From assembly GCA_016946835.1 (NCBI GenBank), contig JACVTC010000094.1, forward strand, positions 586,501 through 650,500: a DNA stretch of 64,000 nt, in the 5' to 3' direction. Of this stretch, positions 14,103-58,159 are shown in pieces; position 1 is the stretch's first letter, and each line of letters starts with the position of its first letter. The DNA is from Neocallimastix lanati (nom. inval.) (taxonomy: Eukaryota; Neocallimastigomycota; Neocallimastigomycetes; Neocallimastigales; Neocallimastigaceae). The notes under the pieces were generated by a model. That model worked only from the letters and a program-made list of their open reading frames with translations. It had not been told where the DNA came from and ran no database searches. A program made the position numbers and the translations under genes.

Positions 14103-14133
<31 letters not shown>

Positions 14134-15184: not shown

Positions 15185-15188
15185 TTGT

Positions 15189-16317: not shown

Positions 16318-16321
16318 TTGT

Positions 16322-17239
16322 TTGTTAAAGAAGAAGCAAATATTGTTAATTTGGTCTCAAATTGAACAAATAACTTAATCACACATTAAACTATTTGCCT
16401 TCCTTAATGTATGGAACTTTCCTATATTCTATTACAATTTAAAATCAAATTATTTCTTAGTGAATAATATATTACTTATATGAAATAAACTCTTATTAAT
16501 ATATTTCTTATTTAAAATTATTGTATTATTATTAAAATGTTAATAAATTATCAATATATTTTTATTAATATTTTTATTTTATCAATTTATTATTATTGTC
16601 AAGTTATATTAAAAATCTAGATAATTTTTCTTTAACCAATAGTTACTCATTGTATTAATAATAAAAATTAATTTCTAAATAATATTACTAATACATAATA
16701 ATACAAAAAAAACGAAATTATATATTATTAATATATGTTTATTATAATCCATGCTATATTTTTAAGAATTAATTATAATTATATTAAATACTTTAAAATT
16801 AATATTATTTTACATATAAATGAAGGATTTAGTATGTTATAATTACTAAACCACATTATTTTATTCTGCAAAATTGATAAAATTATGTTTTAAATATATT
16901 AATATTACATTAATAATTAATTAGGATAAATTTTTATATATTTTAGAAATACTTAAATTAATATAAATTTATTAGATACAATTTAAAAATTATAATTATT
17001 ATTAAAAGAAATTAAAAATAAGAAATGGCTTTCCCATTTCCAATTAATTGTAAAAGTATAAAAGGAGATAGTTTAGGAAAAAAATAATAATAATAATTAT
17101 CATGTAATAAATCATAATAAATAAATTTTAATATAGATTTTTAATAAAACAAAATTTTTCTTTTACTTGTATTTTTATTATTGTTTTAATTTTATTTATA
17201 ATTTTTGAATAATTTTTATAAAAGCCCCGAACCAAACCA
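16322..17239 (+). mobile_element. Solo LTR, family B-like, in ttgt ladder
   Basis: Starts TTGTTAAAGAAGAAGC after ttgt, contains GGAACTTTCCTATATTC, and ends GCCCCGAACCAAACCA. Followed by tgt and an inverted family B LTR. Confidence 0.65.
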
Positions 17240-17242
17240 TGT

Positions 17243-18064
17243 TGTTAAGGTTATGAGAAATTAAATAGAAAACAATAATAAATACACAGATTATATTTTA
17301 TTTATTTTATTTTATTTATTAATTAATTCTTTATTTATTAATTGATGATTTTTTAAAAATTGGAAGCAAAATTTACAACTATTTATACTTTTTTTTTTTT
17401 AAGGCATAAAAGTTGTTCTTGCCACTAAATTTTTATTTTTACATTTTATTTTTTTTATAAAAACTATTAAATTTAAATTGATTTTTATAATCAATTATAT
17501 AAAATTTAATTATAACAATATAGATAAAATACATTTATAATATTAATAAATCTTTTTTTTTTTTTTTTTTTTTATAATAATCTATCTAAAATATTACTAA
17601 AAATTTATTTAATTGGCTATAATTATTATTACAATCTGTTAAAATATTCAAATAAAAATAAAAATACTATTCTAATATAAAGGTTTTTAATAAAATAAAA
17701 TATTTTTCAATATAAAATAAAACATTTTGATATGAAATTTAATAATAAAAGTTAAAAATATAATATATAAATTTTAATTAACAATATATAAAAATATTAT
17801 AAATACAAATTTTCATTATTAATATAAAAATGAAAAAAATAAGATTTATTATTAATATTGCTAATATAAGTTTTAAATATATAAAAATATTACTATTAAT
17901 ATAAGATTTAATATTAAAATATAAAGTTTAATATAATTTTTGATTTAATGTTAATCTTTGAATTTAAAAATTTATTAAAGTACAAAAATAATAATGTACA
18001 TATAATGTATTAGAAATAAATCGTAAATTTAATTAAGAATGAATTATTTAGTACATTTTTATCA
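17243..18064 (-). mobile_element. Solo LTR, family B, inverted, in ttgt ladder
   Basis: Starts TGTTAAGGTTATGAG and ends TTTTTATCA. It is the inverse complement of the LTR at 15189-16317 without the MITE. Spacers tgt (17240-17242) and ttgt (18065-18068). Confidence 0.8.
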
Positions 18065-18068
18065 TTGT

Positions 18069-19021
18069 TGATACGGGGTGTCACTAAATACCTTGTGTTT
18101 CATATTAAATACTCTTAATAATAATATAATAAAAATTAAAATTAAATATTCTTATTAAAATCTTTTATTAATATCAAATATAATAAAAATTATTATTAAA
18201 TATTCTTATTAAATATTCTTTTATTAATATTAAATATAATAAAAATTATTATTAAATATTATTATTAAAATCTTTTATTAATATCAAATCTAATAAAAAT
18301 AATTATTAAATATTTTATTAATATTAAATATAATAAAAATTATTACTAAATATTCTTATTAAAAATTATATATAATTTAAATCATTACTAATTCTTATTT
18401 TTATATCAAGAATAATAAAAACCTATTTCAATAAATATAAGATATAAAATACAGAATTATAAGTATCTGTATAATATTTTCTAAACCTTTGAAATAAACT
18501 AAAAATAAAACAAAAATCAAAAATAAATTAAATCTTTATTAAAATAAAAATGAACTAAAATACAGAAGAATTTCAATAATAAAAATGATCTAAAATACAG
18601 AAAATAACAATTCTGTATAATTCTCTCTCTGAAAGCAATATCAAGAAGAATCTACTGCACTGAATGCTCTTCGTGATACAATCTCTAAATTAATTTTTAT
18701 ATTTTAATTTAATAAATATTATTTTTTTATTAAAATAATTTAAAATAATAGTTAAAAATTAAAATAAAATAGTTATAATAGGTTTTTTTTTATAAAGAAT
18801 ATATTAATGATAAATAAAATATATTAAAATAAAAGTATAAAAAGAAGAATAAATTTCTTTCTTTTTAATACTTGGAACAAATAATTTTAATTTTAATTTT
18901 AAATAAAGAATATTTTAAAATTTAATTTTTTTTTTTTGTTTCCAAATTTATTTTTATCATTATGTGTTAATATTTATTTTTTGTTTTGAATATCTTAGTG
19001 TTTCAACCCTAGCCCGTATCA
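18069..19021 (+). mobile_element. Solo LTR, family A (0.95 kb), TSD ttgt
   Basis: TGATACGGGGTGTCAC...CTAGCCCGTATCA with ttgt on both sides (18065-18068, 19022-19025). Only about four of the 54-bp units are present, against about a dozen in the copy at 4138; the remaining 3' two thirds align closely. Confidence 0.9.
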
Positions 19022-27765: not shown

Positions 27766-30309
27766 GTTGCATGAGTGTGTGGCATTTCGCAAAATTTATA
27801 TAATTAAATATATTGAATAAGATTGAATAATTGAAAATTAATTAAAAATATTTAACAAAATGGAAGAAATAAAAATAGATATTAGTGAAACTAATAGAGG
27901 AAAAGAACAAATAATTATTAATAAAAAATATAAATATAATTATTCATACACTAAAAAGAATAAATCAAAGGTATATAGATGTACCGAATATAAAACTTTA
28001 AATAAATGTAAATCTTACATTATTTTTAATGATGAAAAAGAAATTTTAAAATATGATGGTGTTCATAATCATTTCGAACAAGAATTTAATGCTGCTCTAT
28101 CATTAACAAAATATAGAATTAAAAAAGAAATTAAAAAAAGTTCAATTCCTTTCAATATAAAACCAAAAAGAGTATTTAACCAAATTTCACAAGATATTGG
28201 TTTTATATGTCCTGAATTTAAATCTATAAAATCACAAATAATAAGAGATATAAATAAACAACTTCCTCCCAACATATCAAGTTTTGAGGAAATTCCAGAA
28301 AAACATTATTTATATATTACAAAACAAAATGAAAATTTTATGATATTCAAAAATCAAAATGTCATAATTTTTCAGTCTCCATTTCAAGCATTTTTATTTA
28401 AAAAATATTGTGATGATCTTTTTGTGGATGGCACTTTTTATGTAGCTCCTGATTTCAGTTATCAGGTTTTCATTACAAGAAATTTTGTTCCGTAATTAAA
28501 TGAGTTTTATATCACTTCTTTTTCTATATTAAGAAATAAAGAGCAAGAAACCTATAAAACAATATTTGAAGTAATAAAAAGTAATTGTGATATTACAAAA
28601 GACAATGGGTTTTCTCCAAAAAATCTTCGTTGTGACTTTGAAAGAGTCATACCGCAATAATTGTATTCCCAGATATAAATATTAGATATTGTATTTGGCA
28701 TTACAAACGATCATTAGGACTTCATAAAAATAAAATATGCTATAATGAAGTAAATCAAAACAGAGATTTATATGTTTATTATAACGCTATATTAAATTTA
28801 CCTTTTATAAATCCAAATTATATATTAGATATTTTTCATAAAATTAAAAAATCATGCATTGAAAAAAATTATAACCAATTTTTAATATTTTTGGAATATT
28901 TTAGAAAAACATATTTAATTCTTTATAATATTGAAAATTGGAATTATTATAATAATATTGAACATATAACAAATAATGCCTCTGAATCCTTTAATAATTA
29001 TTTAAGTGGCTTATTTTCAAAAAAACCAACTTATTTTAGACTAATATTTACATTAAATGATGTATCTTTATATCCAGATACCTACGAAAGAAGAATGCTT
29101 GGCGTATGGAACAAACAAAAGAGAAAAACATTAACAAAAACTAATAAAATCAAAAATATTATTGAAAGTTACAAGAAAATGGAATCATTTTTAATTAGTA
29201 ATGAAAGAAATAGAAGCCATATTGCTGGATTATGGTTTGAATGTTTAATTAATTTAAATAATAAAATTAATTAAATTAGAATTAAATTTTTTTTTCTAAC
29301 CTTTTATAAAGTAAAATTATAATTAAACCTATATCTTTAATTATTAATTTTAGTTGTTTTTAATAATTAAATTATAACTAAAGAATTAAATAAAACAAAT
29401 TCTCAATTTTTTTAGTTAAATATTAATATCAATATTTTATATTTTATTATTATAATACTCTTATTAATATCAATATCACTATTAATATTTTATATTTTAT
29501 TATTATAATACTATTATTAATATTAATATCAATATCAATTTATTTTATCATTATTATTAAAAATATAAAAATGTATTTTTTATTTTATTAAAATACTAAT
29601 ATTTAACATTAAATACACAATAAAATATAATATTTTTATATTTTTATTTAAATTAAATCAATTTTTAATTGAAAATTAAAACTTTTAAAATAATAATCAA
29701 TATAATAAAGTTTTATCAAAAACCATTTAGTTTTTTTCTTTTTATTGTTAATTATTTAATAATTATTTGTATATTGTGTTTTTCAAATAAATAACTTTTA
29801 TTTTTTTTTTTTTATTTTATTTTTTTTACTGGATTATTTATAAATATTTCTTTTATTAAAAAAATTTATTTAGCAATTTAATATTTTTAAAATATTGCGC
29901 AAGGACTTAAAAGGTGTAAAATGATCAATTAATTATTTAAATATTATTTTTTAATATTTTTTTTAGTAATTATATTTTAAATTCAACAATTATATTTTAA
30001 ATTATTATCCTTTACATTTTTTAAATTATTAATACTTATTTTTTTTATATATATAAAATTCTTATACATATTTTAAAAAATTGTAAAACGTTTAAAATAT
30101 ATAATAAAATATATATATATATTTTTTTTTTAAAAATTTTTTAAAATTTATTTATTTATTATAGTTTTATATATTTATTTTTATTTATTTAGTTATTTAT
30201 TTAAATTATATATATTATTTATTTATTTTATTATTAATTTATTTATTTATTAAAAATTTTGCGAAATGACACTTTTCCGAAATGAAATTTTTCGAAATGC
30301 TCCTCCCCC
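27766..30309 (+). mobile_element. Mutator-like element (MULE) with FLYWCH transposase
   Basis: The right end ...GAAATGCTCCTCCCCC is followed by AGGTTGCAT (30310-30318). The identical 9-mer lies at 27757-27765, a MULE-sized duplication. The left terminus aligned with the right one begins GAGTGTGTGGCATTTCGC at 27773, so a 7-bp GTTGCAT duplication may sit between TSD and TIR. Subterminal TTTCATTTCG motifs match the neighbouring non-autonomous element. 29280-30240 is non-coding AT-rich sequence. Confidence 0.75.
27860..29277 (+). pseudogene. MULE transposase with N-terminal FLYWCH zinc finger, broken
   Basis: The N-terminus (residues about 20-75) has the FLYWCH-type arrangement: YSYTKKNKSKVYRC, NKCKSY, ILKYDGVHNH. 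The first catalytic Asp is Asp190 in FVDGTFYVAP. An in-frame TAA at 28493-28495 interrupts the protein; the same frame then continues to RCDFERVIP (second Asp candidate) near 28630. A shift near 28657 leads to IIVFPDINIRYCIWHYKRS (the C..H motif typical of MULEs). The frame stays open to 29274 with NNASESFNNYLSG, which holds the likely catalytic Glu, and ends with GLWFECLINLNN. One nonsense change and one frameshift separate it from an intact enzyme. Confidence 0.85.
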
Positions 30310-31987: not shown

Positions 31988-32210
31988 TAGTACTATGTTG
32001 TTGATAGACTCTCATAAATTTAATTTATCTTTAAAAAGAATGAACATAAATTTAAATTAAATTTTATGTATAAACTTAAATTTTTAGATCAAATAATATA
32101 GTAAAATTATTAATGTAAAGAATACATAAATTTATTAATATTTCAAAAATCACATTGACTATATTAAGAGGTTTTTAATAAGAATCAATTTATTACTTCA
32201 TTCTTTATCA
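31988..32210 (-). mobile_element. Family B LTR end fragment, inverted
   Basis: Ends TTCATTCTTTATCA (inverse of TGATAAAGAATGAA). Colinear with the inverse complement of 11913-11963 plus 13175-13350, and lacks the family C insertion. Followed by the spacer atgt. Confidence 0.7.
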
Positions 32211-32214: not shown

Positions 32215-32700
32215 TGATACGATATTTTTATTAAACATCAATATCAATATTTATTTTATTTTATTTGGACGATAACAGTAGGGAATAATTGACAAAATAA
32301 TATATTCTAATATTATATAGAATAATACACACAATAATAATATATTCACACTTTAATATTTAGTTTATTTATTTTATTTATTTATTATCATTCATAAATA
32401 AAAATACATCATTAATATAAATATTTGTTAACTAGTTAAAATATAATTAATTACTAAAATCTCTTATGTTATTAATGTATACTAAATATAAAACTACACT
32501 AAACTATACCAATAAACATGTTTATAGGTTAAATTATTAATAAAACTAAATTAATATTAATAAAAGAACCATTCCTTAAACTATTATTATTTACTAACTA
32601 TATATATTATTACTAAATTATTATTAACTAATAAGATTTCATTAAATTATTTCTAACCAAAGTTTCATTAAATTATGGTATTTATGGTGGTACCGTATCA
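32215..32700 (-). mobile_element. Solo LTR, family G (gag-only element), inverted
   Basis: TGATACGATATTTTTATT...GGTACCGTATCA. It is the inverse complement of the 507-bp LTRs of the gag-only element at 37617-40762, with scattered differences. Flanking spacers atgt / atat. Confidence 0.85.
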
Positions 32701-32704: not shown

Positions 32705-33890
32705 TGATACGGGCTGGGGTTGAAACACTAAGATATTCAAAACAAAAAAAATAAATATTAACACATAACTATAAAAATAAATTTGGAAACAAGAAAATAC
32801 AAAATTTAAATTTTAAAATATTCTTTATTTAAATTTAAAATTAAAATTATTTGTTCCCAGTATTAAAAAGAAAGAAATTTATTCTTCTTTTTATACTTTT
32901 ATTTTAATACATTTTATTTATTATAAATATATTCTTTATAAAAAAAAAAACTATTATAACTATTTTATTTTAATTTTTAGCTATTATTTTTAAATTATTT
33001 TTTAAAAAAAAAAAAAAAATAACATTTATTAAATTAAAATATAAAAAATTAATTTAGAGATTGTATCACGAAGGGCATTCCGGGCGGTAGCTTCTTCTTG
33101 ATATTGTTTTTCCGAGAGAGAATTATACAGAATTGAAATTTTCTGTATTTTAGATCATTTTTATTATTGGAATTCTTCTGTATTTTAGTTCATTTTTATT
33201 TTAATAAAGATTTAATTTATTTTTGATTTTTGTTTTATTTTTAGTTTATTTCAAAGGTTTTAGAAAATATTATACAGAAACTTATAATTCTGTATTTTAT
33301 ATCAAATATTTATTGAAATAGGTTTTTATTATTCTTAATATAAAAATAAGAATTAGTAATGATTTAAATATTATATAATTTTTAATAAGAATATTTAGTA
33401 ATAATTTTTATTATATTTAATATTAATAAAATATTTAATAATTATTTTTATTAGATTTGATATTAATAAAAGATTTTAATAATAATATTTAATAATAATT
33501 TTTATTATATTTAATATTAATAAAAGAATATTTAATAAGAATATTTAATAATAATTTTTATTATATTTAATATTAATAAAAGATTTTTATTAGAATATTT
33601 AATAATAATTTTTATTATATTTGATATTAATAAAAGATTTTAATAAGAATATTTAATAATAATTTTTATTATATTTAATATTAATAAAAGATTTTTATTA
33701 GAATATTTAATAATAATTTTTATTATATTTGATATTAATAAAGGAAATTAATAAGAATATTTAATAATAATTTTTATTATATTTGATATTAATAAAAGAT
33801 TTTAATAAGAATATTTAATAATAATTTTATTTTATTATTATTAAGAGTATTTAATAGGAAATACAAGGTATTTAGTGACACCCCGTACCA
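32705..33890 (-). mobile_element. Solo LTR, family A, inverted
   Basis: Starts TGATACGGGCTGGGG and ends GTGTCAC-complement CCCCGTACCA (one change from GTATCA). Contains about seven 54-bp units. Spacers atat (32701-32704) and taag (33891-33894). Confidence 0.85.
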
Positions 33891-33894
33891 TAAG

Positions 33895-34439
33895 TGTTGA
33901 GGTTCGGGACAGAATAATAATAAATATAGAAATAAACACTAAAATAAAAAAAATTTAAAAATTAAAATATATCTTTTTTTAAATTTTAAAATATAGTTGT
34001 ATAATTATTAATGATTTATTTATATTTAAAATTTTAACTATCTATTCTAATAATGTTTTAATTTATCAATTAATATATAATTTAATATTCTTGTAAATTA
34101 TTAATATTATATTCTCATAAAGTTTATTATTGTAAAAAGGATACAGAAAATAATAATCTATTTTAGAGAAAACAATAAAAATAATAGTTAGTATTGTCAA
34201 TCGATTTAATTTTATACAGAATTAAATATTTCTGTATTTATTTTATTAAAAACAATTTATAGATAATTATTTTTATTATAAATAATTTTATTATAAATAA
34301 TTTTATTATAAATAAATTCTTTTTTTTTATTATAACTATTTTAATTTTAAATAATTTCATTATTATAAACATTTTATATTTTTTCTTTTTATCATTTTTA
34401 TGTATGCTTATTTGAAGTAAATAAGCTAGTTCCGGATCA
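33895..34439 (-). mobile_element. Solo LTR, family B-like, inverted, in tRNA-Gly ladder
   Basis: Starts TGTTGAGGTTCGGGAC and ends TAGTTCCGGATCA. Followed by the spacer caca (34440-34443). No coding sequence. Confidence 0.55.
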
Positions 34440-34443
34440 CACA

Positions 34444-34965
34444 TGATACGCAACTTATAAAAAAGTCACTTTAGGGTCGGGACAAACAAGTTTTCTTAAT
34501 ATAAAATAATATATTCTAATAATAAGAATTAAATAACACACAAATAAAAAAAATAATTTAAACAAAGATAATAATATTATTTAATATTTTAGTATTTTAT
34601 TATTTTCTCTGTTTTTATATTTCAAATTAATAATTTCATATATTTATCTCTAAAATCTATTTTCTATATTTATTATTTATTATAAAATTTCTCTTTCTAT
34701 TTTCTAATCTTAATTATAAAGTATAAATCTCTTATTTTAACTATTGAGTAATTCTTTTTCTCTAAGAATTCCCCTTTCTAATTATTTAATAATTGATCTT
34801 TTTATACTAAGTTTTCTCAATTCCTATTGGTAGTTAATTATTATTTAATTATATTATTTAATTATATTAAAATATTTAATATTCTTTATCACTAATCCAC
34901 ATATTAATATTGTTATTTTCTAATTTTTTACAATTATTTTCTATTATTGTATGAGTAACGTATCA
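34444..34965. mobile_element. Solo LTR in tRNA-Gly ladder
   Basis: Starts TGATACGCAACTT and ends GAGTAACGTATCA. The 7-bp inverted terminus is TGATACG/CGTATCA. Spacers caca on both sides (34440-34443, 34966-34969). Confidence 0.65.
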
Positions 34966-34969
34966 CACA

Positions 34970-36640
34970 TGATACCGGCTGGGGTTGAAACACTAAGATA
35001 TTCAAAACAAAAAAAAATAAATATTAACACATAACTATAAAAATAAATTTGGAAACAAGAAAAAAATTAAATTTTAAAATATTCTTTATTTAAATTTAAA
35101 ATTAAAATTATTTGTTCCAAGTATTAAAAAGAAAGAAATTTATTCTTCTTTTTATACTTTTATTTTAATACATTTTATTTATTATTAATATATTCTTTAT
35201 AAAAAAAAAACTATTATAACTATTTTATTTTAATTTTTAACTATTATTTTAAATTATTTTTTAAAAAAAAAAATAACATTTATTAAATTAAAATATAAAA
35301 AAATTAATTTGGAGCTTGTATCACGAAGGGCATTCCGGGCGGTAGCTTCTTCTTGATATTGTTATTCAGAGAGAGAATTATACAGAATTGATATTTTCTG
35401 TATTTTAGATCATTTTTATTATTGGAATTCTTCTGTATTTTAGTTCATTTTTATTTTAATAAAGATTTAATTTATTTTTAATTTTTGTTTTATTTTTAGT
35501 TTATTTCAAAGGTTTTAGAAAATATTATACAGAAACTTATAATTCTGTATTTTACATCAAATATTTATTGAAATAGGTTTTTATTATTCTTAATATAAAA
35601 ATAAGAATTAGTAATTATTTAAATATTATATAATTTTTAATAAGAATATTTAGTAATAATTTTTATTATATTTAATATTAACAAAATATTTAATAATTAT
35701 TTTTATTAGATTTGATATTAATAAAAGATTTTAATAATAATATTTAATAATAATTTTTATTATATTTAATATTAATAAAAGAATTTTATAAGAATATTTA
35801 ATAATAATTTTTATTATAAAAGATTTTAATAAGAATATTTAATAATAATTTTTATTAGATTTGATATTAATAAAAGATTTTAATAAGAATATTTAATAAT
35901 AATTTTTATTAGATTTGATATTAATAAAAGAATTTTATAAGAATATTTAATAATAATTTCTATTATAAAAGATTTTAATAATAATTTTTAATAATAATTT
36001 TTATTATATTTAATATTAATAAAAGATTTTTATTAGAATATTTAATAATTTTTATTATATTTGATATTAATAAAAGATTTTAATAAGAATATTTAATAAT
36101 AATTTTTATTATATTTAATATAAATAAAAGAATTTTATAAGAATATTTAATAATAATTTTTATTATATTTGATATTAATAAAAGATTTTAATAAGAATAT
36201 TTAATAATAATTTTTATTATATTTAATATTAATAAAAGAATTTTATAAGAATATTTAATAATAATTTTTATTATAAAAGATTTTAATAAGAATATTTAAT
36301 AATAATTTTTATTATATTTAATATTAATAAAAGAAATTTATAAGAATATTTAATAATAATTTTTATTATATTTAATATTAATAAAAGAATTTTATAAGAA
36401 TATTTAATAATAATTTTTATTATATTTAATATTAATAAAAGAAATTTATAAGAATATTTAATAATAATTTTTATTATATTTAATATTAATAAAAGAAATT
36501 TATAAGAATATTTAATAATAATTTTTATTATATTTGATATTAATAAAAGATTTTAATAAGAATATTTAATAATAATTTTATTTTATTATTATTAAGAGTA
36601 TTTAATAGGAAATACAAGGTATTTAGTGACACCCGTATCA
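34970..36640 (-). mobile_element. Solo LTR, family A (1.67 kb), TSD caca
   Basis: TGATACCGGCTGGGG...GTGACACCCGTATCA with caca on both sides (34966-34969, 36641-36644). Contains the longest 54-bp array (about 35640-36590), including several shortened units. Confidence 0.9.
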
Positions 36641-36644
36641 CACA

Positions 36645-37610
36645 TGTTAAGGTTCGGAGAGAGGGAAAAATAAAAATAAGTATTAATGTAAACAATAAAA
36701 AATAAACAAACAAGAAAATTAATAAACAAAATAAATTTTTGTTTTATAAATCCTTTATTAAAATTTTATTTAAAAATTACAATATTAAAATTATAATATA
36801 AAAAAATACAATTTTTTTTTACTGTTATTTATATTTTTTTTCTTAAAATAATAGAAATGGTAAAGCCATTTCTTTGTATAATAAAATTTAATTATTAAAT
36901 ATTTTATATTAATTTTTTATTATTAATATAATTATTATTTAACTTATAATAAATAATACTTATATATTAATCTATTACTAATTATTTATTACTAATCTAC
37001 TTAATTATATATTTTAAAAGACAAATTTTTTATTTTACAGAAGTTAATTCTGTGGTTTAATAATATTTATTTAATCCTAAAGTTTAATTTTACTAAGTTT
37101 AGAAAAATAATATTATTTAAATTATTAATATAAAATTTATAATCATTTCATCAAATTTATAATATAATATTTATAATAAAACATATAATAATAATATAAT
37201 TATTTCCTTTTATGTTTAATCTTTTATTAGTAATCATTAATACAATTTTTTAATTTGGAATTTTCCACAGAAATAATTGATATTGATAAGTTTAATATTA
37301 ATAAAAGAAATATTGATAAGATTTTGATAAACTATAAAGAAAATTGATAAAATAAACTATATAATATTGATAAGAATTTTAATAATAATAAAATATAGAT
37401 AAGAATAATAAAGGTAGCATAGATAAGGAATTAATATTAAATATACTTTTTTAAATAGTATAATTTAATTTGTACTAATTAGGAATATAGATTAATTTAT
37501 TAGAATATAGAAAGTTCCAAAAGAATAAAGAATCAAATAATTTGTTTAAGGGTTAAATGAATCATTTAAGATGCATAACCAAAAGAACATTATTTGGGCA
37601 TTCTTTATCA
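36645..37610 (-). mobile_element. Solo LTR, family B, inverted, TSD caca
   Basis: TGTTAAGGTTCGGAG...GGCATTCTTTATCA with caca on both sides (36641-36644, 37611-37614). This copy defines the family B ends used elsewhere. Confidence 0.8.
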
Positions 37611-37616
37611 CACAAG

Positions 37617-38123
37617 TGATACGGTACCACCATAAATACCATAATTTAGTGAAACTTAGGTTAGGAATTATTTGATAAAATCTTATTGGTTAATAATAAT
37701 TTAGTAATAATATATATAGTTAGTAAATAATAATAATTTAAAGAATGGTTCTTTTATTAATATTAATTTAGTTTTATTAATAATTTAACCTATAAACATG
37801 TTTATTAGTATAGTTTAGTATAGTTTTATATTTAGTTTACATTAATAACATAAGAAATTTGAGTAAATAATTATATTTTATTGAATGATTTAATTATATT
37901 TTAACTAGTTAACAAATATTTATATTGATGATGTATTTTTATTGATGAAAGATAATAAATAAATAAAATAAATAAACTAAATATTAAAGTGTGAATATTA
38001 TTATTGTGTGTATTATTCTATATAATATTAGAATATATTATTTTGTCAATTATTCCCTACCGTTATCGTCCAAATAAAATAAAATAAATATTGATATTGA
38101 TGTTTAATAAAAATATCGTATCA
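37617..38123 (+). repeat. 5' LTR of the gag-only element
   Basis: TGATACGGTACCACC...ATATCGTATCA. Same length as the 3' LTR. Solo relatives at 32215, 56834 and 57362. Confidence 0.9.
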
Positions 38124-38129
38124 TAATTT

Positions 38130-38142
38130 TGGTGGAGAATCC
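38130..38142 (+). other. Primer binding site of the gag-only element
   Basis: TGGTGGAGAATCC, 6 bp after the 5' LTR; identical in these 13 bases to the motif at 800. Confidence 0.7.
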
Positions 38143-38336
38143 GGGCGTGACAGTAACAAAATAATATGAAAATAATATTTATAGAATAATAATAATGCAT
38201 AATAATAAATAATAAAATAAGTTTAATATATATGTGAAAAAAAATAATAATAAAATAAAAGTAAAGTAAAAATATTATATAATTAATAATAGTAAACAAA
38301 AAAGTATATTTAATAATAAATAAATAATTAATTAAA

Positions 38337-39923
38337 ATGGATATCTATAAGTTGTTAAGAAGTTTACCATCATTGAAAAATTATGGTAAAGATGTAGACT
38401 TACGGATATATGATTTTGAAGAAGTTATGGATCTATGGGATATCCAAAATCCTAAAAGAAGACTTGTCTTTATGAAAGAATGTGTGAATTATGCTCTTAA
38501 AGAAGTTCTAAAAAGTATAGAAGAAAATTGCGAGAATCAAACCAATCTATCAACTCAAATTATTATAGAAGAAATTGAAAAATATTTGGGAATTACTCAA
38601 AATGATAAAATTTGGGAATTAAAAGAAATGAAAATTAAAACGAATGAATCAATTCCTATATTTAATATTAATTATATAAGAAAATTTAAAAATATTGATG
38701 AAGAAATGAGAAAATTAATTACAGTTGAAGATTATATAAACTCAATTAAGCCAAGAATATATCCATGTTTAAGGGTATTAGAACAGGAATGTGAAAATAT
38801 TGAAGAAGCAATTAAAATCGCGGAAAAGGCCAGTAGAATTGAAGAGAAATTAAAATTCAAAATAGATTTTAATAATTATAAACAAAATTATAAAAATGAT
38901 TATATAAATGATTATAATAATAATATTAATAAGAAAAATAATAAAATAATGTGCTTTAGATGTTATGAATTAGGCCACAAAGCATTCAATTGTAAATATT
39001 CATTTAAAGAATTGTCAATAATGGAAGAAAAAGGAATAATAGAAAAGAATAAAAGAAGTAATTATAGGAAAAATTTTAATAAGAAAAAAATATTTTCATA
39101 TAATAAAAATAATTATAAATTAAATGGTAAAAAAGGCAATAATTATTATTATAATAATAATGGGAATTATTCTGGTAATGTTTGTAATTGGAATAATAAA
39201 CAAAATAATATTAATATAAATAAAAAGAATAATTTAAATAATTACATGAGTATTAATAATAATTATCGAAATAATAAGTTAAACATTCCAAGGTATGAAT
39301 TCAATAATAATTATGATAACAATAAAAATTTTTATTGGACTAAAAATATTAAACATAGAAATTGGTATAATAATCTTGGTAATAATAATAATAATAATAA
39401 TAATTATAATTACAGAATAAATAATAATAGTAACAATGATATTAATAATAATAATTGTAGAGGTGAAGACAACAACAACAACAACAATAATAATAATTAT
39501 AATGATAGAAATAACAGTTACACGAATTCTTATAGAAATAATTACAATAATTACAATTTTAATGCCAACAACAATAATTACAACAATGATAATTACAATA
39601 ATAATAATAATAACAGTAATAATAATTTTAACAATAAAAATGATATAATTACTTATGAAAAGAATATAGAAAACCAAATTAGTAATTTCAATTATAATAT
39701 TAATAAACCTGGAGTTAAGGAAAAGGTGATTTTTACTTCTAATGAAAATAAGAATTTTGACTATAGTAATAAAAATTTTGAAAGGATAAATACTAATTCA
39801 ATATTTATAAATAGTAATAAGAATAATAATGTTAATGAAAATAATAATTATAATATTATACGTAACACGGTAGGTTTAAAGAAAAAGGTTTTTGGAATGG
39901 AAAATAATACAAAAAAAAAATAA
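38337..39923 (+). CDS. Gag-like protein with CCHC zinc knuckle and Asn-rich tail
   Basis: Intact 528-residue ORF starting at the first ATG after the leader. Residues 1-190 form a charged, mostly helical-looking capsid-like region (MDIYKLLRSLPSLK; EEVMDLWDIQNPKRR). A canonical zinc knuckle, CFRCYELGHKAFNC, follows, with ligands Cys206, Cys209, His214 and Cys219. Residues 220-528 are very rich in Asn, Tyr and Lys. Such proteins package element RNA into particles. The intact frame next to near-identical LTRs argues for recent activity. The Asn tracts reflect AAT/AAC codon repeats common in this genome. No protease motif is present. Confidence 0.85.
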   Translation: MDIYKLLRSLPSLKNYGKDVDLRIYDFEEVMDLWDIQNPKRRLVFMKECVNYALKEVLKSIEENCENQTNLSTQIIIEEIEKYLGITQNDKIWELKEMKIKTNESIPIFNINYIRKFKNIDEEMRKLITVEDYINSIKPRIYPCLRVLEQECENIEEAIKIAEKASRIEEKLKFKIDFNNYKQNYKNDYINDYNNNINKKNNKIMCFRCYELGHKAFNCKYSFKELSIMEEKGIIEKNKRSNYRKNFNKKKIFSYNKNNYKLNGKKGNNYYYNNNGNYSGNVCNWNNKQNNININKKNNLNNYMSINNNYRNNKLNIPRYEFNNNYDNNKNFYWTKNIKHRNWYNNLGNNNNNNNNYNYRINNNSNNDINNNNCRGEDNNNNNNNNNYNDRNNSYTNSYRNNYNNYNFNANNNNYNNDNYNNNNNNSNNNFNNKNDIITYEKNIENQISNFNYNINKPGVKEKVIFTSNENKNFDYSNKNFERINTNSIFINSNKNNNVNENNNYNIIRNTVGLKKKVFGMENNTKKK

Positions 39924-40062
39924 ATAATAATTAATTAAATAATTTGAAATTTCAAAATCTCAAATTTCAAAATTAAAATTTAAAATTTTGAAATATATTT
40001 ATTTTTATTATATATTGTTTAAAAATTTATTATTATAAAAATTTATTATATATTTATATAAA

Positions 40063-40113
<51 letters not shown>

Positions 40114-40239
40114 ATTATAAAAAAAAATTTATTAAAAAAAAAAAAAATTTATTAAAAGAAAAAAAAAAAATTTATTAAAAAATAAAAAAAATTTATGAAA
40201 GTAACTAAATTTTGGTGACTTCAAGGGACGAAGTCTAAT

Positions 40240-40762
40240 TTCAGTGGGGGCATTTTGATACGGTACCACCATAAATACCATAATTTAGTGAAACTTAGGT
40301 TAGGAATTATTTGATAAAATCTTATTGGTTAATAATAATTTAGTAATAATATATATAGTTAGTAAATAATAATAATTTAAAGAATGGTTCTTTTATTAAT
40401 ATTAATTTAGTTTTATTAATAATTTAACCTATAAACATGTTTATTAGTATAGTTTAGTATAGTTTTATATTTAGTTTACATTAATAACATAAGAAATTTG
40501 AGTAAATAATTATATTTTATTGAATGATTTAATTATATTTTAACTAGTTAACAAATATTTATATTGATGATGTATTTTTATTGATGAATGATAATAAATA
40601 AATAAAATAAATAAACTAAATATTAAAGTGTGAATATTATTATTGTGTGTATTATTCTATATAATATTAGAATATATTATTTTGTCAATTATTCCCTACT
40701 GTTATCGTCCAAATAAAATAAAATAAATATTGATATTGATGTTTAATAAAAATATCGTATCA
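40240..40762 (+). repeat. Polypurine-like tract and 3' LTR of the gag-only element
   Basis: The purine run AGTGGGGG lies 5 bp before TGATACGG. The LTR 40256-40762 matches 37617-38123 apart from an A/T and a C/T difference near positions 337 and 452 of the LTR. Confidence 0.85.
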
Positions 40763-40764
40763 CA

Positions 40765-41326
40765 TGATATTTTATGGTTTATATCTTAATTCTGAATAGG
40801 CTCAGAAAGTGACATAACCAATATCAATAATTAAATTTAGAAAAAGTTGTTTTTGTGATTAAGATTTTAAAAATATGTTTTATTAATATATATTTTATTT
40901 ATTTTATAAATTATTTTATATACATCTTTTAATTTTATTATTTAAATTATTATTTTAATTATTTAATATTATTATTAATATTTAGTTTTTGATTAAAATG
41001 AGTAAAAACTATATAAAAACCTGATTATTAAAATAAATAAAATTAAGAACTATTTATATTAATTTAGTAAATTATACATTTTAAAATTTGTTTACATGTT
41101 ATAAGTATTTACAATTAATAATATTTTAAAAATTATTATTTCTGTTTATTGTTTATTTTATTTTTTTATTATTAAAATATTATTTAATATATTTTTATTT
41201 TTATTAATTTATTAATTGTTTATTATTAAACTTTATAAAATTTGTACCGTGATATTAATTATATATATATATATATTTTTTTTAATATAATATGAAATTT
41301 ATATTTATAAATTTCATTATTTATCA
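40765..41326. mobile_element. Solo LTR in tRNA-Gly ladder
   Basis: Starts TGATATTTTATGG two bases (ca) after the gag-only element and ends ATTATTTATCA, followed by cac and the next LTR. No coding sequence. Family not resolved. Confidence 0.5.
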
Positions 41327-41329
41327 CAC

Positions 41330-42208
41330 TGTAATAATTCTATTAAGAACTAACTCAAAATAGAATTATTAACTACAACTTAACAACTAATTCATTAAGT
41401 TGAGAAAATAAAATAAAATAAATTTTTTTTTACCTTTAAAGTAGAGTTTATTATAAAATTAATTATAATAATAACACAAAAAGTAAGAAAAGAATTGTTT
41501 GTATAAATTGATTTTAAAAATATGTTTTTGAATAAAATATTTTTATTAATTTATTAAAGTTAAAAATATAAAATTGTTACTATTATAACTATATTTTTTA
41601 TAATAATAACTCTTGATTTCTCAAAGAGAACTCAAGAGCCTTATTTATATTTTTTTATGAAAATAAGGTTAAATAAGAAAGGGTTTTCTAATCTTAACAA
41701 ATCTCTTATCTAGGAAAAGATTAGATAGAAAAACCTAGATAAGTTTTCGATCGATATTCTATCCATATCGATCATCGCATTAATTAAGTAAAACCGATTA
41801 CTTCTAAAAAGTAATTGGAAAAAATCTTAATTAACCGATTTTCCAATCTAATGATCGAAAATAAAAGAATAAAATAATAAAAGATATTTCGATCATATAA
41901 TTTATCCTTATATTAAAAATATAAAATTAAATAGTTAATAAAATACAGAATACATTATAAAATACAGAATACATTATAAAATACAGAATAAAATACAATA
42001 CAAAATACATTAGTTACAGTAGAGAATTTAACATATTGTAAATATATTATTTAAAATTAATTAAATAAATTTTGTTAAATTAATGAATATTTAAAATTAA
42101 ATTAAATAAATTTAATAAATATTATATGTAATTAAATAAAGTTATAGTTATAATAACTTAACTAAGAAAATATAATTATTTGCTAACAAATAATTATAGA
42201 TTCTTACA
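41330..42208 (+). mobile_element. LTR, family S, adjacent to tRNA-Gly, with pseudoknot block (copy 2)
   Basis: Starts TGTAATAATTC (compare TGTAAGAA) and ends ATTCTTACA, 18 bp before the mature tRNA-Gly. Flanks cacac / aacac (4 of 5). Structures: terminal 12-bp hairpin (about 41333-41370); CTCTTGATTTCTC hairpin (41610-41638); CCTTATTT/AAATAAGG (41639-41668); pseudoknot A TCTAATCTT (41687-41695)/AAGATTAGA (41717-41725) and B CTTATCTAGG (41705-41714)/CCTAGATAAG (41734-41743); GATCGATAT hairpin (41749-41773); nested TTAATTAAG/CCGATTACTT hairpin (41780-41834); ATGATCGAAA/TTTCGATCAT (41851-41896). Confidence 0.75.
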
Positions 42209-42226
42209 AACACAAGCAATTATGAA

Positions 42227-42297
42227 GCGTTAATAGTATAGAGGTAGAATATTTGCCTTCCAAGCAAATGGCCCGGGTTCGATTCCCGGTTAACGCA
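42227..42297 (+). tRNA. tRNA-Gly(UCC)
   Basis: 71-nt cloverleaf. Acceptor GCGTTAA/TTAACGC with discriminator A. Anticodon stem TTTGC/GCAAA with loop CTTCCAA, anticodon TCC at 42259-42261 reading GGA. T arm CCGGG TTCGATT CCCGG. No intron. The Pol III terminator TTTTT follows at about 42304-42308. An LTR ends 18 bp upstream. Confidence 0.97.
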
Positions 42298-42424: not shown

Positions 42425-43354
42425 TTATTTTATTTTTCTTATCTTTTAAATTAATTACAAAATTAAAATATAAATATATGTATATTTAATATAAAATTAT
42501 TTAACTAAATTATATATGTATATTTATAATTTAATCTTTAAATGAAAACATAATAAATTTTTATTAAGGTTTAAAACAATATAATATTACTTTTTATAGA
42601 AAAAGAATATTTTCTATTAAGAATTTTACATATATTTATATTTTTTTCAAAAGTTAAAGTTATTAAAAAATAAAAAATAAAAGTTTTTAAAAAGTTCTTA
42701 AAAATCGAAAAATTTAGAAAAAACAGAAAACAATAGAATTAAGAATATAATAGAGTAAATTTTAATTAATTAAACACAAGTATTATCAAGAAATTCTAGT
42801 ACTTTCTTGAACTATAAAGAAACTTCTAGATCTTTTAGAATAAAATTATAAAATAATAATAAATATGAATCGAACCCTAAGTAGTATGATTCAAGGTATT
42901 AGTTACTAACAACTATACCAGTAATAATATTCCTTTAATTTTGGTACAAGACCGATTGAAATCCATAAAATTAATATAGCCTTAGAGTGGAAAATAAATA
43001 TTAATAATTATAAATATAGTGTAAAGTTGTACAAAAATTTAATGTATTAAATTTTTAAAATATATAGAAATTAGAAATAATTTAATTTAAAAATAGAGGT
43101 TAAATAGTTTAACTAAAAAATAAAAAATAAAAAAAAAATAATTTCGAGATTTAGTGAGATCTCAATTTGGGGAAATTGAGATCAAGAGAAATTAAGATTT
43201 AAAATTTTATAATAAATAAAGAGATAATTAAATAAAATAATAATTGAGAAAGAAATTAAATATTTTAATAATAATAAATTATTGTGTATTATTTGGAATA
43301 TTAGAATATTTACCTTAAATAAATTAGGAGTTCGATGTAATGGACCAAATTTTG
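42309..43354. other. AT-rich DNA with ATT array
   Basis: 42361-42424 is an ATT array. 42866-42926 (minus) has tRNA-like A- and B-box spacing (next entry). 43250-43330 resembles the LTR interior of the gag-only family (TTATTGTGTATTATTTGGAATATTAG). No protein gene. Confidence 0.5.
42866..42926 (-). pseudogene. Degenerate tRNA-like sequence
   Basis: The minus strand reads TGGTATAGTTGTTAGTAAC (A-box/D-arm-like) and, about 25 nt later, AGGGTTCGATTC (B-box/T-loop-like). Neither acceptor nor T stem pairs well, so it is at most a tRNA relic or the head of a tRNA-derived SINE. Confidence 0.35.
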
Positions 43355-43946
43355 TGTAAGAACTACTTTATGAAGTTATTCATAAATTAGTTCTGTTCTA
43401 CAATTTATTAATGAAGAACATTAATAGATTGAGAGATGTAAGATATACTTACCTAGGTCGAGTTTATTATAAGGGTTAACAACTAATAATACAGATTAAA
43501 ATATTAGAACACAGTATTTGTTTATTATTTAAGATAATTAAGTTTTAATATGCTTTATTAATTAATAATGTTTTTTAAAGAATTAAGATTTAAAATAATA
43601 AGAATGATTTTTTATTTTATTTGGTTATTATTATTGTTCTTTCTTATAATAATAACTCTTGATTTCTCAAAGTGAATTCAAGAGCCTTATTTGTACTTTT
43701 TTGAAAAGTAAGGTTAAATTAAAAAAGTGCTTTCTAATCTTAACAAATCTCTTATCTAGGTAAAGATTAGAGAGAAAAACCTAGATAAGATTTTTGATGA
43801 TATTCTATCCATATCGATCATCGTATCAATTAGTTAAAACCAATTACTTTTAAGAAGTGATTGGGAAAAACCCTAATAAACCGATTCGCTAATCTAATCT
43901 AATTGATCGATAATAAAAGAATAAAATAATAAAAGATATTTCAACA
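43355..43946 (+). mobile_element. Family S LTR, truncated, with pseudoknot block (copy 3)
   Basis: Starts TGTAAGAACTAC with an AGAACTA/TAGTTCT hairpin. Closely related to copy 2 from about 43640. Pseudoknot A TCTAATCTT (43733-43741)/AAGATTAGA (43763-43771), B CTTATCTAGG (43751-43760)/CCTAGATAAG (43780-43789), and CCAATTACTT/AAGTGATTGG hairpin. It ends against the gypsy fragment at about 43947 without the family's TTCTTACA end. Confidence 0.7.
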
Positions 43947-49336: not shown

Positions 49337-50428
49337 TTATTGTTTATTTTTCTTTTTTTCATCTAATTGTCCAAAGATAGATGAAAAGAAGTTGTAAAGA
49401 GGAGAAGTAACAGATTCATTATCACCGTGATCAAGACCAGTCATTTCATACCAAATATGCTCTTGGTGGTTATGTTCTAAAGCTTCATGATAACTTTTTG
49501 GGAATGTACCAACAACAAAGTCATTTGTACCACAGGAAATCATAGTAAGATATGGTGGTTTACCTTGAAAAACTACATCTTTTTCTTCCTTGAATAAACC
49601 ATTATGATGAGTGAACATATCTTCAGCTGGAAGAATACCTGGAGCTGGAGAGAAAGCGCCAACGAAACCAAATAAATCTGGTCTCATTAAACCAATATAT
49701 AAACTGTTTCTTCCACCGAAGGAGTAACCACAGATGGCAGTGTTTTTCTTACCAGTAAATATTCTATAATTCTTTTTCATGTATGGCATGATATCATTAA
49801 CTAAATCATTAATGAAATTATTGTAACCAGCAAAGTACTCTTCATTTAAATTTGGTTCAACTTCGGTTCCTGGAGCTGGAGCATATTGATCTGGAAGAAC
49901 CATAATAAATTCCTTAGCCATGTGTTTATGGAACAAATTTCCTGGAATTGCAATTGTACCGAAACCTTCTTGTAACATAAATTCACCATTAGTCATAACA
50001 CCGTGTAATAAGTAAACAACAGGGAACTTTTTCTTTCCATCATAACTTGGTGGAAGAAGAACGTGTAATGGACGTTCACTTTTAGTAGTTGTCGAATAAT
50101 AAGTCAAGTTTTTAACAGTTGGGTATTCAACACCTTCCTTTTTTTGAAGGAATTCCTCTGGACAAAATTCCGTAATTTTTACTTTATCCATATAACCCTT
50201 CCAAGGTGTGCGTCTATTAAGATGAACTTCATCAAATGATGAATCATTAGCTTTTTCAATACCACATAATTTTCCATTTTCTATACCCCACTTACCATAG
50301 GAATTTACAGAAATTACATTTTTAGTAGTAGTACAGCAAGAATATCCTAATTTAGTAGCAAAGCATTCAGCTGAAACTTTTGCAGTTAAAGTAATAGCAA
50401 CAATAGCTAAAATACTATTAATTTTCAT
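49337..50428 (-). CDS. Secreted dockerin-CE1 esterase (feruloyl/acetyl-xylan esterase-like)
   Basis: 363 residues, intact, no intron. Residues 1-20 are a signal peptide (MKINSILAIVAITLTAKVSA). Residues 21-57 form one fungal dockerin (CBM10-like): Cys22, LGYSCC with Cys31/Cys32, the conserved GKWGIEN (Trp47) and CGI (Cys55). Such dockerins attach enzymes to the gut-fungal cellulosome. Residues about 105-355 are an alpha/beta-hydrolase of the CE1/esterase-D type. Oxyanion-side motif VVYLLHG (137-143), nucleophile elbow GYSFG with Ser236, probable Asp303 in CGTND, and His334 in GLDHG. Expected role: removing feruloyl or acetyl groups from plant arabinoxylan outside the cell. The exact substrate cannot be told from sequence. 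The dockerin is N-terminal and single. The gene stands alone; only AT-rich DNA flanks it. Confidence 0.93.
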   Translation of the reverse strand: MKINSILAIVAITLTAKVSAECFATKLGYSCCTTTKNVISVNSYGKWGIENGKLCGIEKANDSSFDEVHLNRRTPWKGYMDKVKITEFCPEEFLQKKEGVEYPTVKNLTYYSTTTKSERPLHVLLPPSYDGKKKFPVVYLLHGVMTNGEFMLQEGFGTIAIPGNLFHKHMAKEFIMVLPDQYAPAPGTEVEPNLNEEYFAGYNNFINDLVNDIMPYMKKNYRIFTGKKNTAICGYSFGGRNSLYIGLMRPDLFGFVGAFSPAPGILPAEDMFTHHNGLFKEEKDVVFQGKPPYLTMISCGTNDFVVGTFPKSYHEALEHNHQEHIWYEMTGLDHGDNESVTSPLYNFFSSIFGQLDEKKKNKQ

Positions 50429-50756
50429 TTTATATTTATCTTATTTTTTTAAATATAATAACAAAAAAAGCAAAGAAAAATTAATAGTATATATATATAT
50501 TTTTTTTTTAAAATTTTAAAATATTTATATATTCTAATTAAATTAAGAAATTATTGTATTTAAATTTTAAATTTTTATTGGGTCATTGTAAGATTTATAA
50601 AATTTTAATTTATAATTTTTATTAAAAATACTATAAATATGTCAATCATTATTATTAAATCACTCATATTATAGTATTTTATCAAATTTCTGAATTAAAA
50701 TTTGCATATTTTAAAGTTTTTATATTTACTGTCTGTCATAGTATTTATTATTATTA
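50429..50756. other. Upstream region of the esterase
   Basis: AT-rich intergenic DNA that must hold the promoter of the minus-strand esterase gene. No specific element was recognised apart from TA-rich runs near 50490-50500. Confidence 0.4.
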
Positions 50757-56833: not shown

Positions 56834-57357
56834 TGATACGATATTTTATTTATGTATCTAAATTAATATTTATTTATGGGCAATGACAATAGGGAATTAT
56901 GACAAAATAATATATTCTAATATTAAATTGAAATAACACATACAATAATACAAAATAAAGTAATAAATATATCTTTTTTTAGTTCTCTTTATTTATTATT
57001 AATTATTATATCAATTATTATTATTACTCTCTTATATAAATATTATAATTAATTATCTCAAATATATATATTCATCTAATTTATAAATCATTAAATATAA
57101 TAAAACATTAATATCTCTCTTTAACTATACTAAACTAAAATATAAAAAATAGCTATTTATGTGAATTAATTTTATCATAAATATAAACTAATAAATAAAA
57201 GAATTCTCCGTTTAATAATTATTATTAATTATTATTCTAAAATTATATACCTTATTATTATATACCATTATAAAATTAATATTGACCAATAATATTTAAG
57301 TATTTCTTTAACCTAAAGAATCTACCTAAATACCATTTTTATAGTGGTCACGTATCA
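56834..57357 (-). mobile_element. Solo LTR, family G-like, inverted, upstream of tRNA-Ile
   Basis: TGATACGATATTTTATT...AGTGGTCACGTATCA. Clear relative of the gag-only element's LTR (ACAATAGGGAATTATGAC block conserved). Spacer gtat on the left (56830-56833), ttaa on the right (57358-57361). Confidence 0.8.
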
Positions 57358-57361
57358 TTAA

Positions 57362-58039
57362 TGATACAGAACATTTAAAATATTCCATATCGAGTTATTA
57401 ATTTTATTAATTTAGTTGGTCGTTTCTCTAAGGAATTATGACAAAATAATATATTCTAACAAATTATAAGAAAATAATTCATAATAATAATGTTTTATAA
57501 TAATATTTTATTCTTTATTTATTTTTATTATTTTATCGTTACATATATAAATATTTATAATTACATTTTCTTAATTTTATATAATTGTTAAAATAATTAT
57601 TTAATATTATATTTTTATTAAACATATCTCTTAAACTATTAATTTCCTAATAACTTTATTTAAAACTACAATTTCATTATTAAATATATTTAACTATTAA
57701 TATTTAAAATATATTTCCTAAATAAAATATAATTATCAATATTTATAATATAATTCCTAACACTATATAATTCTCAAAATAATATTTAAAATACAAAATA
57801 AAACTTATTAATAATAATGATGAATTAATTTATTATCATAATAGTAGAATCATTAATAATATAATTTATCTATTTTAATTATGATAAAAGAATTAACCAT
57901 ACTTTTAAAAATAATTATTTGAATAACTATATATAAATTATTTTAATTATTATAACCAATAATATTTATACAATGTTTATACATTAATTCTAACCTACAT
58001 TTTTTACCTTAATCTTATTTTTATGGTGGTATTGTACCA
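57362..58039 (-). mobile_element. Solo LTR, family G-like, TSD ttaa, 16 bp from tRNA-Ile
   Basis: TGATACAGAACATTT...GGTGGTATTGTACCA with ttaa on both sides (57358-57361, 58040-58043). It shares AGGAATTATGACAAAATAAT with the previous LTR. Its right end lies 16 bp before the mature 5' end of the tRNA. Confidence 0.85.
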
Positions 58040-58055
58040 TTAATTCCAACAAGTT

Positions 58056-58148
58056 GCTCCTGTAGCCTAGAGGTTTAAGGCGTCGTGCTTATAAGGGTGT
58101 TCCTCTTATGCAACGCGAAGATCGCGGGTTCGACCCCCGCCAGGAGCA
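58056..58148 (+). tRNA. tRNA-Ile(UAU) with 19-nt intron
   Basis: Acceptor GCTCCTG/CAGGAGC with discriminator A. D arm GCC...GGC. Anticodon stem TCGTG/CGCGA (58083-58087/58114-58118). Anticodon TAT at 58090-58092. The intron 58094-58112 begins one base after the anticodon, the canonical position, and its CTTAT pairs with the anticodon region ATAAG. T arm GCGGG TTCGACC CCCGC. TTTTT terminator at 58155-58159. tRNA-Ile(UAU) genes commonly carry introns in eukaryotes. Confidence 0.96.
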
Positions 58149-58159
58149 AATAAATTTTT

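Follow-up and report, generated by a model that had tools for sequence, protein, structure and literature searches.

A region of the genome of the gut fungus Neocallimastix lanati in which long terminal repeats (LTRs) lie end to end beside a tRNA gene is very probably a stack of separate LTR-retrotransposon insertions, made successively at one site, 14-18 bp ahead of the mature tRNA 5' end. This reading is built on unit borders, a fixed distance beside many tRNA genes, target duplications of 4 or 5 bp and the abutment of LTRs of different families, all of which are direct observations. The window (the whole stretch analysed) comprises 64,000 nt, C757:586501-650500 of a 199-Mb genome in 762 contigs, and has 75-90% A+T per 2-kb segment. 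Between 33895 and 42208 seven LTR units follow one another with 2-6 bp between them, and a tRNA-Gly(TCC) gene comes next at 42227. The units represent seven distinct LTR families (here LTR1 to LTR7 from the distal to the tRNA-proximal end, LTR5 being that of a gag-only element). An earlier note on this DNA, which had proposed at least four families, was right about the mixture of families and too low in its count. The position that it gave for the tRNA gene is borne out by ARAGORN and Rfam (67 bits), and the letters of its spacers (CACA three times, then CACAAG, CA, CAC and AACACAAG) read exactly as stated.

The unit borders were checked against other copies in the genome. About 40 candidates were scored per query (window copy included in the counts), so the copy numbers are lower bounds; the initial genome listing held from 370 (LTR2) up to 2262 (LTR6) candidates. 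LTR7 aligns over its full length in 38 of 40 scored copies, and 35 of 40 LTR4 copies align from base 1 and stop at 965-968. Both ends of LTR6 are shared by 38 of 41 long matches. LTR5 copies start at base 1 in 36 of 40 cases and end at 507-509, and LTR3 (query: first 591 bp) starts at base 1 in 40 of 40. For LTR2, both ends are shared by 19 of 44 listed matches, the others being partial or weaker. The borders drawn in the earlier note therefore stand at both ends for LTR2, LTR4, LTR5, LTR6 and LTR7 and at the start of LTR3; that of LTR1 is recovered at its 3' end, which recurs, but not at the 5' end, where the first 58-110 bp are unaligned in 39 of 39 other scored copies. The ladder also extends upstream of 33895, outside the range of that note, with units at 32215-32700 and 32705-33889 and an LTR end at 32210. 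The LTR part that ends there has a 96% match with the same end base in L041, L042 and L060, and the copies in L041 and L042 sit 15 bp from tRNA-Gly.

LTR ends recur at a similar distance from tRNA genes elsewhere in the genome. Ninety loci (L001-L090) were selected, 60 by tRNA-Arg or tRNA-Gly identity, 20 by LTR7 and 10 by LTR1, and their tRNA genes and those of the window were called with ARAGORN. After exclusion of L061 (identical to the window), of genes with identical last 200 bp upstream or less than 300 bp of upstream sequence, and of 21 genes at most 60 bp behind another tRNA, the test set held 75 lead tRNA genes of 11 kinds, both window tRNAs among them. An LTR-end motif (TATCA, TTACA or TACCA, picked after the initial alignments had been viewed) ends 11-18 bp upstream of 49 of the 75 genes, with a mode of 15 bp (Gly 14/21, Arg 11/18, Asn 9/10, Cys 7/9, Thr 4/9, others 4/8). 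Control 8-bp windows 41-297 bp upstream had a motif end in 1.57 genes on average and in 8 at most, and the mirrored downstream window gave 0/75. A lack of LTR enrichment upstream of tRNA genes, which the earlier note had named as fatal to its proposal, was thus not seen among the sampled genes. In a motif-free test, the end of a repeat of at least 150 bp shared with other loci fell 9-19 bp upstream of 50 of the 75 genes (control windows: mean 3.9, maximum 16). Genome-wide, the pattern TATCA-N(6-24)-tRNA-Gly has 11 matches, with gaps of 14 (three), 15 (six) and 16 bp (two), and its backward-read control has none. Six of these matches (C42, C70 and four on C137) were already among the 75; the other five have a gap of 14 or 15 bp. 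The probability of eleven such gaps, if uniform and independent, is about 1.5e-9, which is an overstatement because the motif was chosen on part of these loci. As in Ty3-like targeting, the insertions beside tRNA genes occupy a narrow upstream window.

The same geometry appears when individual families are followed (neighbour relations in coordinate tables, pairs of LTRs and LTR6 flanks were judged by eye). LTR7 copies picked by similarity alone adjoin a tRNA in 4 of 20 loci (window counted), at distances of 18 bp in the window, 16 bp in L065 (Gly) and L072 (Trp) and 14-16 bp, depending on a mutated end, in L078 (Met). LTR6 copies with 100-bp flanks (21 of the 41 long matches) adjoin a tRNA at 13-14 bp in 4 of 21 cases (Trp, Cys, Ser, Ala); most of the remaining flanks start with another LTR end within 0-8 bp, and a few are the copy's own interior or ambiguous. 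By coordinates, LTR6 at C445:2422904-2423467 and C555:347596-348105 and LTR4 at C555:243691-244660 lie 14-15 bp ahead of tRNA-Arg genes. LTR-LTR pairs 2-8 bp apart are found on C35, C68, C88, C115, C743, C747 and C757. Both orientations occur: LTR7 lies one way beside the tRNA in the window and L036 and the other way in L039, L065, L072 and L078, and LTR6 runs opposite to the tRNA in L024 and in the same direction at C555:347596.

Repeated spacers could also have been inherited if a ladder had been copied between loci along with its tRNA. Such block duplication would suit the tRNA-Gly and tRNA-Arg arrays on single contigs (C137, C555) and some shared flanks: C259 equals C555 for LTR6, L079 agrees with L080 and L067 with L069, and merging possible duplicates turns the 75 loci into 72 clusters (motif signal in 47/72). 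Most loci are nevertheless distinct: the LTRs beside the tRNA differ, the spacers repeat the pocket of their own locus, and copying would leave unexplained why the same spacer stands on different families within one ladder. We regard this explanation as very improbable.

The flanks of individual copies point to target duplication. Among LTR7 copies of more than 94% identity (two at 75-78% were omitted), the two 5-bp flanks are identical in 15 of 23 and differ by no more than one letter in 18 of 23, whereas shuffled pairings gave means of 1.06 exact (maximum 7) and 2.15 at up to one mismatch. Because L079/L080 and L067/L069 repeat each other, the independent exact count is 14/21. In four misses (L062, L067, L068 and L069) one flank recurs in another copy, so these are probably ends of full elements; the fifth, L039, has two mismatches between its flanks. 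For LTR6, identical 4-bp flanks were found in 11 of 20 copies (shuffled mean 0.95, maximum 7), or 10 of 19 independently because C259 repeats C555; the misses comprise two copies with an internal flank, five off by one letter and two off by two. The 5-bp duplication of Ty3-like targeting is thus seen in LTR7, and a length of 4 bp suits LTR6 and most window families: two staggers are used at one site. Short matches come easily at 75-90% A+T, and the spacers might in principle be random AT-rich tetramers or the product of wrongly joined repeats. Chance or assembly artefact is hardly credible given that the shuffled controls are far lower and the same geometry occurs on more than 20 contigs. Nor did the spacers turn out to be random once LTR ends had been set by alignment, the other outcome that the earlier note had regarded as damaging.

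Within the window, the stack was peeled from the tRNA side by removing one unit at a time and keeping one copy of its duplication, whose length was preset at 5 bp for LTR7 and 4 bp for the others. Flank matches in this order are 4/5, 4/4, 4/4, 4/4, 4/4, 4/4, 1/4, 3/4 and 3/4. Once LTR7 is removed, with one 5-bp copy kept, LTR6 has flanks CACA/CACA and a distance of 16 bp to the tRNA; removal of LTR6 then leaves the gag element at 14 bp with flanks CAAG/CAAG; and LTR4, LTR3 and LTR2 each follow at 16 bp with CACA/CACA. The two distal units LTR3b and LTR5b (second copies of the LTR3 and LTR5 types) match at 3/4 and lie 17 bp from the tRNA. Two insertions shifted by 2 bp account for the spacers CACAAG and CA. 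Peeling was feasible at 17 tRNA loci, both window loci included; in 12 of them it brought a new LTR end to a tRNA distance of 9-19 bp (random joins: 6.6%). With the tRNA-side enrichment and the duplications, this backs the successive integration of several families at one point that the earlier note had proposed. Its further claim that each element re-copied the same 4 bp is correct for most window families; LTR7 uses 5 bp and LTR1 fails. A brute-force search in front of each tRNA for inverted ends and a duplication suffered from the noise of AT-rich DNA and served as no more than a lead, and a looser boundary search was set aside, its candidates in 37 of 51 loci including several plainly spurious ones (e.g. 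L040, kept as one of five misses below).

The nested duplications also bear on the order of insertion. Without peeling, the flanks of the gag element and LTR6 match at only 3/4, and peeling adds one letter to each; this modest evidence favours the order gag-only element, LTR6, LTR7. No order can be given for LTR2, LTR3 and LTR4 because their CACA is identical. The ratio of the best other copy to the self score, from distal to proximal, is 0.91, 0.92, 0.81, 0.99, 0.98, 0.97, 0.98, 1.00 and 0.98 (the first 0.6 kb was scored for LTR3 and LTR3b; LTR1 owes its 0.81 mostly to the unaligned 5' part). The three distal LTRs, which have spacers other than CACA, are the most diverged, and the scores do not separate the six proximal ones from each other (divergence against ladder position: Spearman 0.70, p 0.036, n = 9). 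Between the two LTRs of the gag element, 2 of 507 sites differ. LTRs adjacent to tRNA genes match the window copies at 98% (L036), 99% (L065), 99% (L072), 99.6% (L024) and 98% (L029) and are thus young. The ladder is therefore an age record with the oldest element farthest out, as the earlier note had it, in a coarse sense (two nested duplications and the Spearman value); it is not a fine clock. Toward the tRNA the spacers change from ATGT, ATAT and TAAG to CACA, which is read as an altered tRNA 5' flank or the loss of intermediate steps.

Several observations weigh against a stack built at the tRNA. No motif lies at 11-18 bp in 26 of the 75 lead tRNA genes, some of which carry a mutated LTR end there, and in 16 of the 20 LTR7 loci no tRNA lies closer than 1.5 kb. 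In the motif-free test, 14 of the 75 genes have repeats starting 9-19 bp downstream and 50 have them within 0-60 bp, with a peak at 0; these are read as the shared 3' flanks of tRNA array copies. LTR1, with flanks TAAG/CACA (1/4), fails the duplication test, and 5 of the 17 peeled sites lack a second LTR end (among them L036, whose end is degenerate, and L040, where a boundary seems to have been misplaced within tandem repeats). The near-constant 14-18 bp of the peeled steps is no separate evidence because it is largely set by the short spacers. Finally, LTR-LTR junctions at 4134, 5626, 8477, 8955, 11908 and 18064 have no tRNA inside the window; their spacers (4134-18069) are CAA, TTCG, TTTAT, TTTA, TTGT and TTGT (3-5 bp), and a search of the window for tRNA relics found none near these 4-18 kb stacks. 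The tRNA may have been lost or lie further left, or LTR ends may themselves attract insertions.

The last possibility can be made general: the elements would home in on the ends of LTRs already in place, and in each stack the tRNA itself would have been found by the first arrival alone. LTR6 and LTR7 copies mostly do adjoin another LTR end, target duplications often take in the last bases of the neighbouring LTR, and the stacks at 4-18 kb have no visible tRNA. Peeling would have the same outcome under self-targeting, and the constant distance after it separates neither reading. What does separate them is age and position. Self-targeting predicts the oldest LTR beside the tRNA, whereas tRNA-adjacent copies are young (98-99.6%), those of the window are less diverged than the distal ones, and two nested duplications place the last three insertions on the tRNA side. 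Many tRNA genes would, in addition, each need an independent initial insertion at equal distance. Self-targeting is thus unlikely, and successive insertion beside the tRNA is preferred.

The proposed model for growth of the ladder, which borrows its first steps from published work on Ty3, is as follows. The integrase would be tethered by the RNA polymerase III (Pol III) factor TFIIIB and would make a 4- or 5-bp staggered cut just upstream of the transcription start, so that the tRNA and its internal promoter stay intact. The site beside the tRNA would be reusable because the duplicated bases restore it; the next element would land there and push older ones outward. Most elements would later have been reduced to solo LTRs through LTR-LTR recombination. 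Two families, LTR5 with its gag-only elements and the short LTR6, would have joined the stack, presumably via the integrase of autonomous relatives.

Coding sequences adjoining LTR copies indicate the kind of element involved. An LTR7 copy with adjoining pol (L068) encodes RNase H followed by an H2C2 domain, and an LTR1 copy with pol (L087) encodes RNase H, H2C2 and an rve core. Integrase thus follows RNase H in both fragments, as in Ty3/Metaviridae (the reverse transcriptase lies outside both). Among PDB structures, Ty3 Gag-Pol is the top match of the L068 fragment (E-value: 1.3e-36); for L087 it is a foamy-virus integrase (3.5e-34), with Ty3 Gag-Pol the next distinct molecule (1.8e-26). Start-to-start distances of paired LTRs are 6.3 kb in three of four LTR7 pairs, 7.3-7.9 kb for LTR4 (six pairs), 6.7-7.1 kb for LTR2 (three), and 7.2-8.5 kb in three of five LTR1 pairs (4.7-4.9 kb in two). 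LTR5 pairs are 2.5-2.7 kb apart in five of seven cases (4.0 and 8.1 kb in two) and LTR6 pairs 1.9-2.1 kb (six), and because of these short distances both elements look non-autonomous. The LTR5 element has a single open reading frame (ORF), gag-like by position and by a CCHC knuckle seen by eye, that matched no family in Pfam. The gag-like protein is 100% identical over residues 1-210 to a protein of Neocallimastix sp. 'constans', and a 98% relative is encoded on a Neocallimastix lanati contig. The LTR5 and LTR6 elements share a 3' stretch adjoining the LTR, ACTTCAAGGGACGAAGT-like.

Features of the tRNA-Gly ladder and of a second ladder in the window (positions are those of the window)
Feature	Positions	Strand	Remarks
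3' part of further LTR family, distal ladder step	31988..32210		ends ..TTTATCA; no 5' border set
LTR5-type solo LTR (LTR5b)	32215..32700	-	flanks ATGT/ATAT (3/4); best other copy 97%
LTR3-type solo LTR, older copy (LTR3b)	32705..33889		flanks ATAT/ATAA after peeling (3/4); first 596 bp searched; end placed at 33889
LTR1 solo LTR	33895..34439	-	flanks TAAG/CACA unmatched; sense from relative L087 (pol on minus side)
Spacer CACA, target duplication	34440..34443		sequence read and peeling
LTR2 solo LTR	34444..34965		flanks CACA/CACA
Spacer CACA	34966..34969		sequence read and peeling
LTR3 solo LTR, internal ~54-bp tandem repeats	34970..36640		flanks CACA/CACA; first 591 bp searched
Spacer CACA	36641..36644		sequence read and peeling
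LTR4 solo LTR	36645..37610		flanks CACA/CACA
Spacer CACAAG	37611..37616		CACA of older step plus 2 bp; last 4 are CAAG of gag element
Gag-only LTR element	37617..40762	+	flanks CAAG/CAAG after removal of LTR6 and LTR7
Parts of gag-only element	LTRs 37617-38123 and 40256-40762; ORF 38337-39920	+	
Spacer CA	40763..40764		with preceding LTR-end CA makes CACA of LTR6
LTR6 solo LTR	40765..41326		flanks CACA/CACA after removal of LTR7
Spacer CAC	41327..41329		sequence read
LTR7 solo LTR	41330..42208	-	5-bp flanks CACAC/AACAC (4/5); sense from relative L068
18-bp pocket, newest LTR to tRNA	42209..42226		begins AACACAAG
tRNA-Gly(TCC), target gene	42227..42297	+	ARAGORN; Rfam 67 bits
Second ladder: LTR5-like LTR	56834..57357	-	68% to LTR5; left border by end motif
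Second ladder: spacer TTAA, target duplication	57358..57361		
Second ladder: 678-bp LTR	57362..58039		flanks TTAA/TTAA; 15 bp from tRNA; 92% to tRNA-adjacent LTR of L034
Second target tRNA gene, short intron	58055..58149	+	ARAGORN: unresolved in one run, Ala(tgc) in another

A second, shorter ladder (56834-58054), not mentioned in the earlier note, also ends at a tRNA gene, and the 15 bp between its last LTR and that gene begin with TTAA. By comparison with a yeast sequence, this tRNA is more likely Ile(TAT). A scan of the window for junction-like motifs gave 19 to the left of the tRNA (shuffled mean 7.1, maximum 17) and 6 to the right (mean 4.7, maximum 10), a statistically weak result. Low-identity mapping of the LTR families over the window was discarded, as it returned mostly low-complexity matches. 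Downstream of tRNA-Gly lie a tRNA-like stretch (42863-42935, minus strand) with a perfect B box, called by neither ARAGORN nor Rfam and possibly a relic, and an LTR7-related piece (43640-43942) of 87% identity, rising to 95% in L071, which the fetched loci match in about 20 rows. Elsewhere in the window are an esterase with a CBM10 domain (49340-50440, minus strand), the latter of the fungal dockerin type, as in gut-fungus cellulosomes and in keeping with an anaerobic gut fungus as host, and a FLYWCH-domain ORF (27842-28492) that is possibly a DNA-transposon fragment.

Two arrangements of tRNA genes were noted among the fetched loci. Close tRNA pairs, mainly Asn-Arg and Cys-Gly, lie 7-15 bp apart (e.g. 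L001-L004, L031-L033) and are probably co-transcribed; in 18 of 21 such pairs the leading gene has an LTR-end motif 11-18 bp upstream. The idea that the second gene is spared (0/21) was dropped as circular, since two genes separated by an insertion would never have been counted as a pair. Arrays of near-identical tRNA-Arg(TCT) at C555:170732-399007 and of identical tRNA-Gly(TCC) at C137:9120-83748 have LTR ends upstream of many fetched units. As ladders offer homology for recombination, they may help tRNA gene arrays grow.

Relative dating of transposon invasions usually relies on noisy divergence, and nested duplications give order directly, with a succession of families that could be read and cross-checked at many tRNA genes of one genome. 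The broadest interpretation is about as likely as not: the examined LTR families, autonomous and non-autonomous and with two staggers, would have converged on one tRNA-side site, and the ladders would form an order-dated archive whose nested duplications give the succession of families and the past tRNA 5' flanks (CACAAG during the six latest steps and other spacers earlier). The presence of different staggers and pol-less elements at one landing site makes gain or borrowing of targeting testable. The range of Pol III-targeted integration also widens to take in an early-diverging phylum of fungi, here with a genome that is large and AT-rich. Judged by titles, the retrotransposon literature on Neocallimastigomycota that was covered (most subscription journals and preprints fall outside it) has none on tRNA-side LTR stacks.

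Integration beside the Pol III start is already known from yeasts and Dictyostelium, and the mechanism itself is not new. Going by the parts of the sources consulted, Ty3 of S. cerevisiae inserts some 15 bp ahead of mature tRNAs (PMC5006619); its insertions duplicate 5 bp and lie within a few bp of the Pol III start (PMC8632968). The N. lanati ladder resembles it in the position about 15 bp upstream, the 5-bp duplication of LTR7 and pol fragments similar to Ty3 Gag-Pol; it differs in having several families, 4-bp and 5-bp duplications at one site, deep stacks and a gut-fungus host, and TFIIIB tethering would apply here by analogy. DGLT-A of Dictyostelium occurs in both orientations at 13-33 bp upstream from tRNA genes (PMC5911963), with twenty insertions in D. 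discoideum, and a table note in the same source as that count records that the distance of an earlier element is obscured when others integrate at its tRNA gene (PMC5006619). It shares with the present elements the upstream position, both orientations and repeated use of one tRNA gene; a multi-family ladder read through nested duplications does not figure in the parts of its description consulted. Tj1 of Schizosaccharomyces japonicus, a Ty3-group element, inserts just upstream of Pol III genes with a 5-bp duplication and, according to the sections seen, in one fixed orientation (PMC4600332), unlike LTR6 and LTR7, which occur in both. Yarrowia Tyl3, Tyl6 and Ylt1 and Candida Beta/Tca8 are listed in a table as Ty3-type families near tRNA starts, and the portion of that description consulted holds no stacking record (PMC5911963). 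What is new in N. lanati is the fungal phylum, the use of one site by several families with two duplication lengths, and the non-autonomous passengers.

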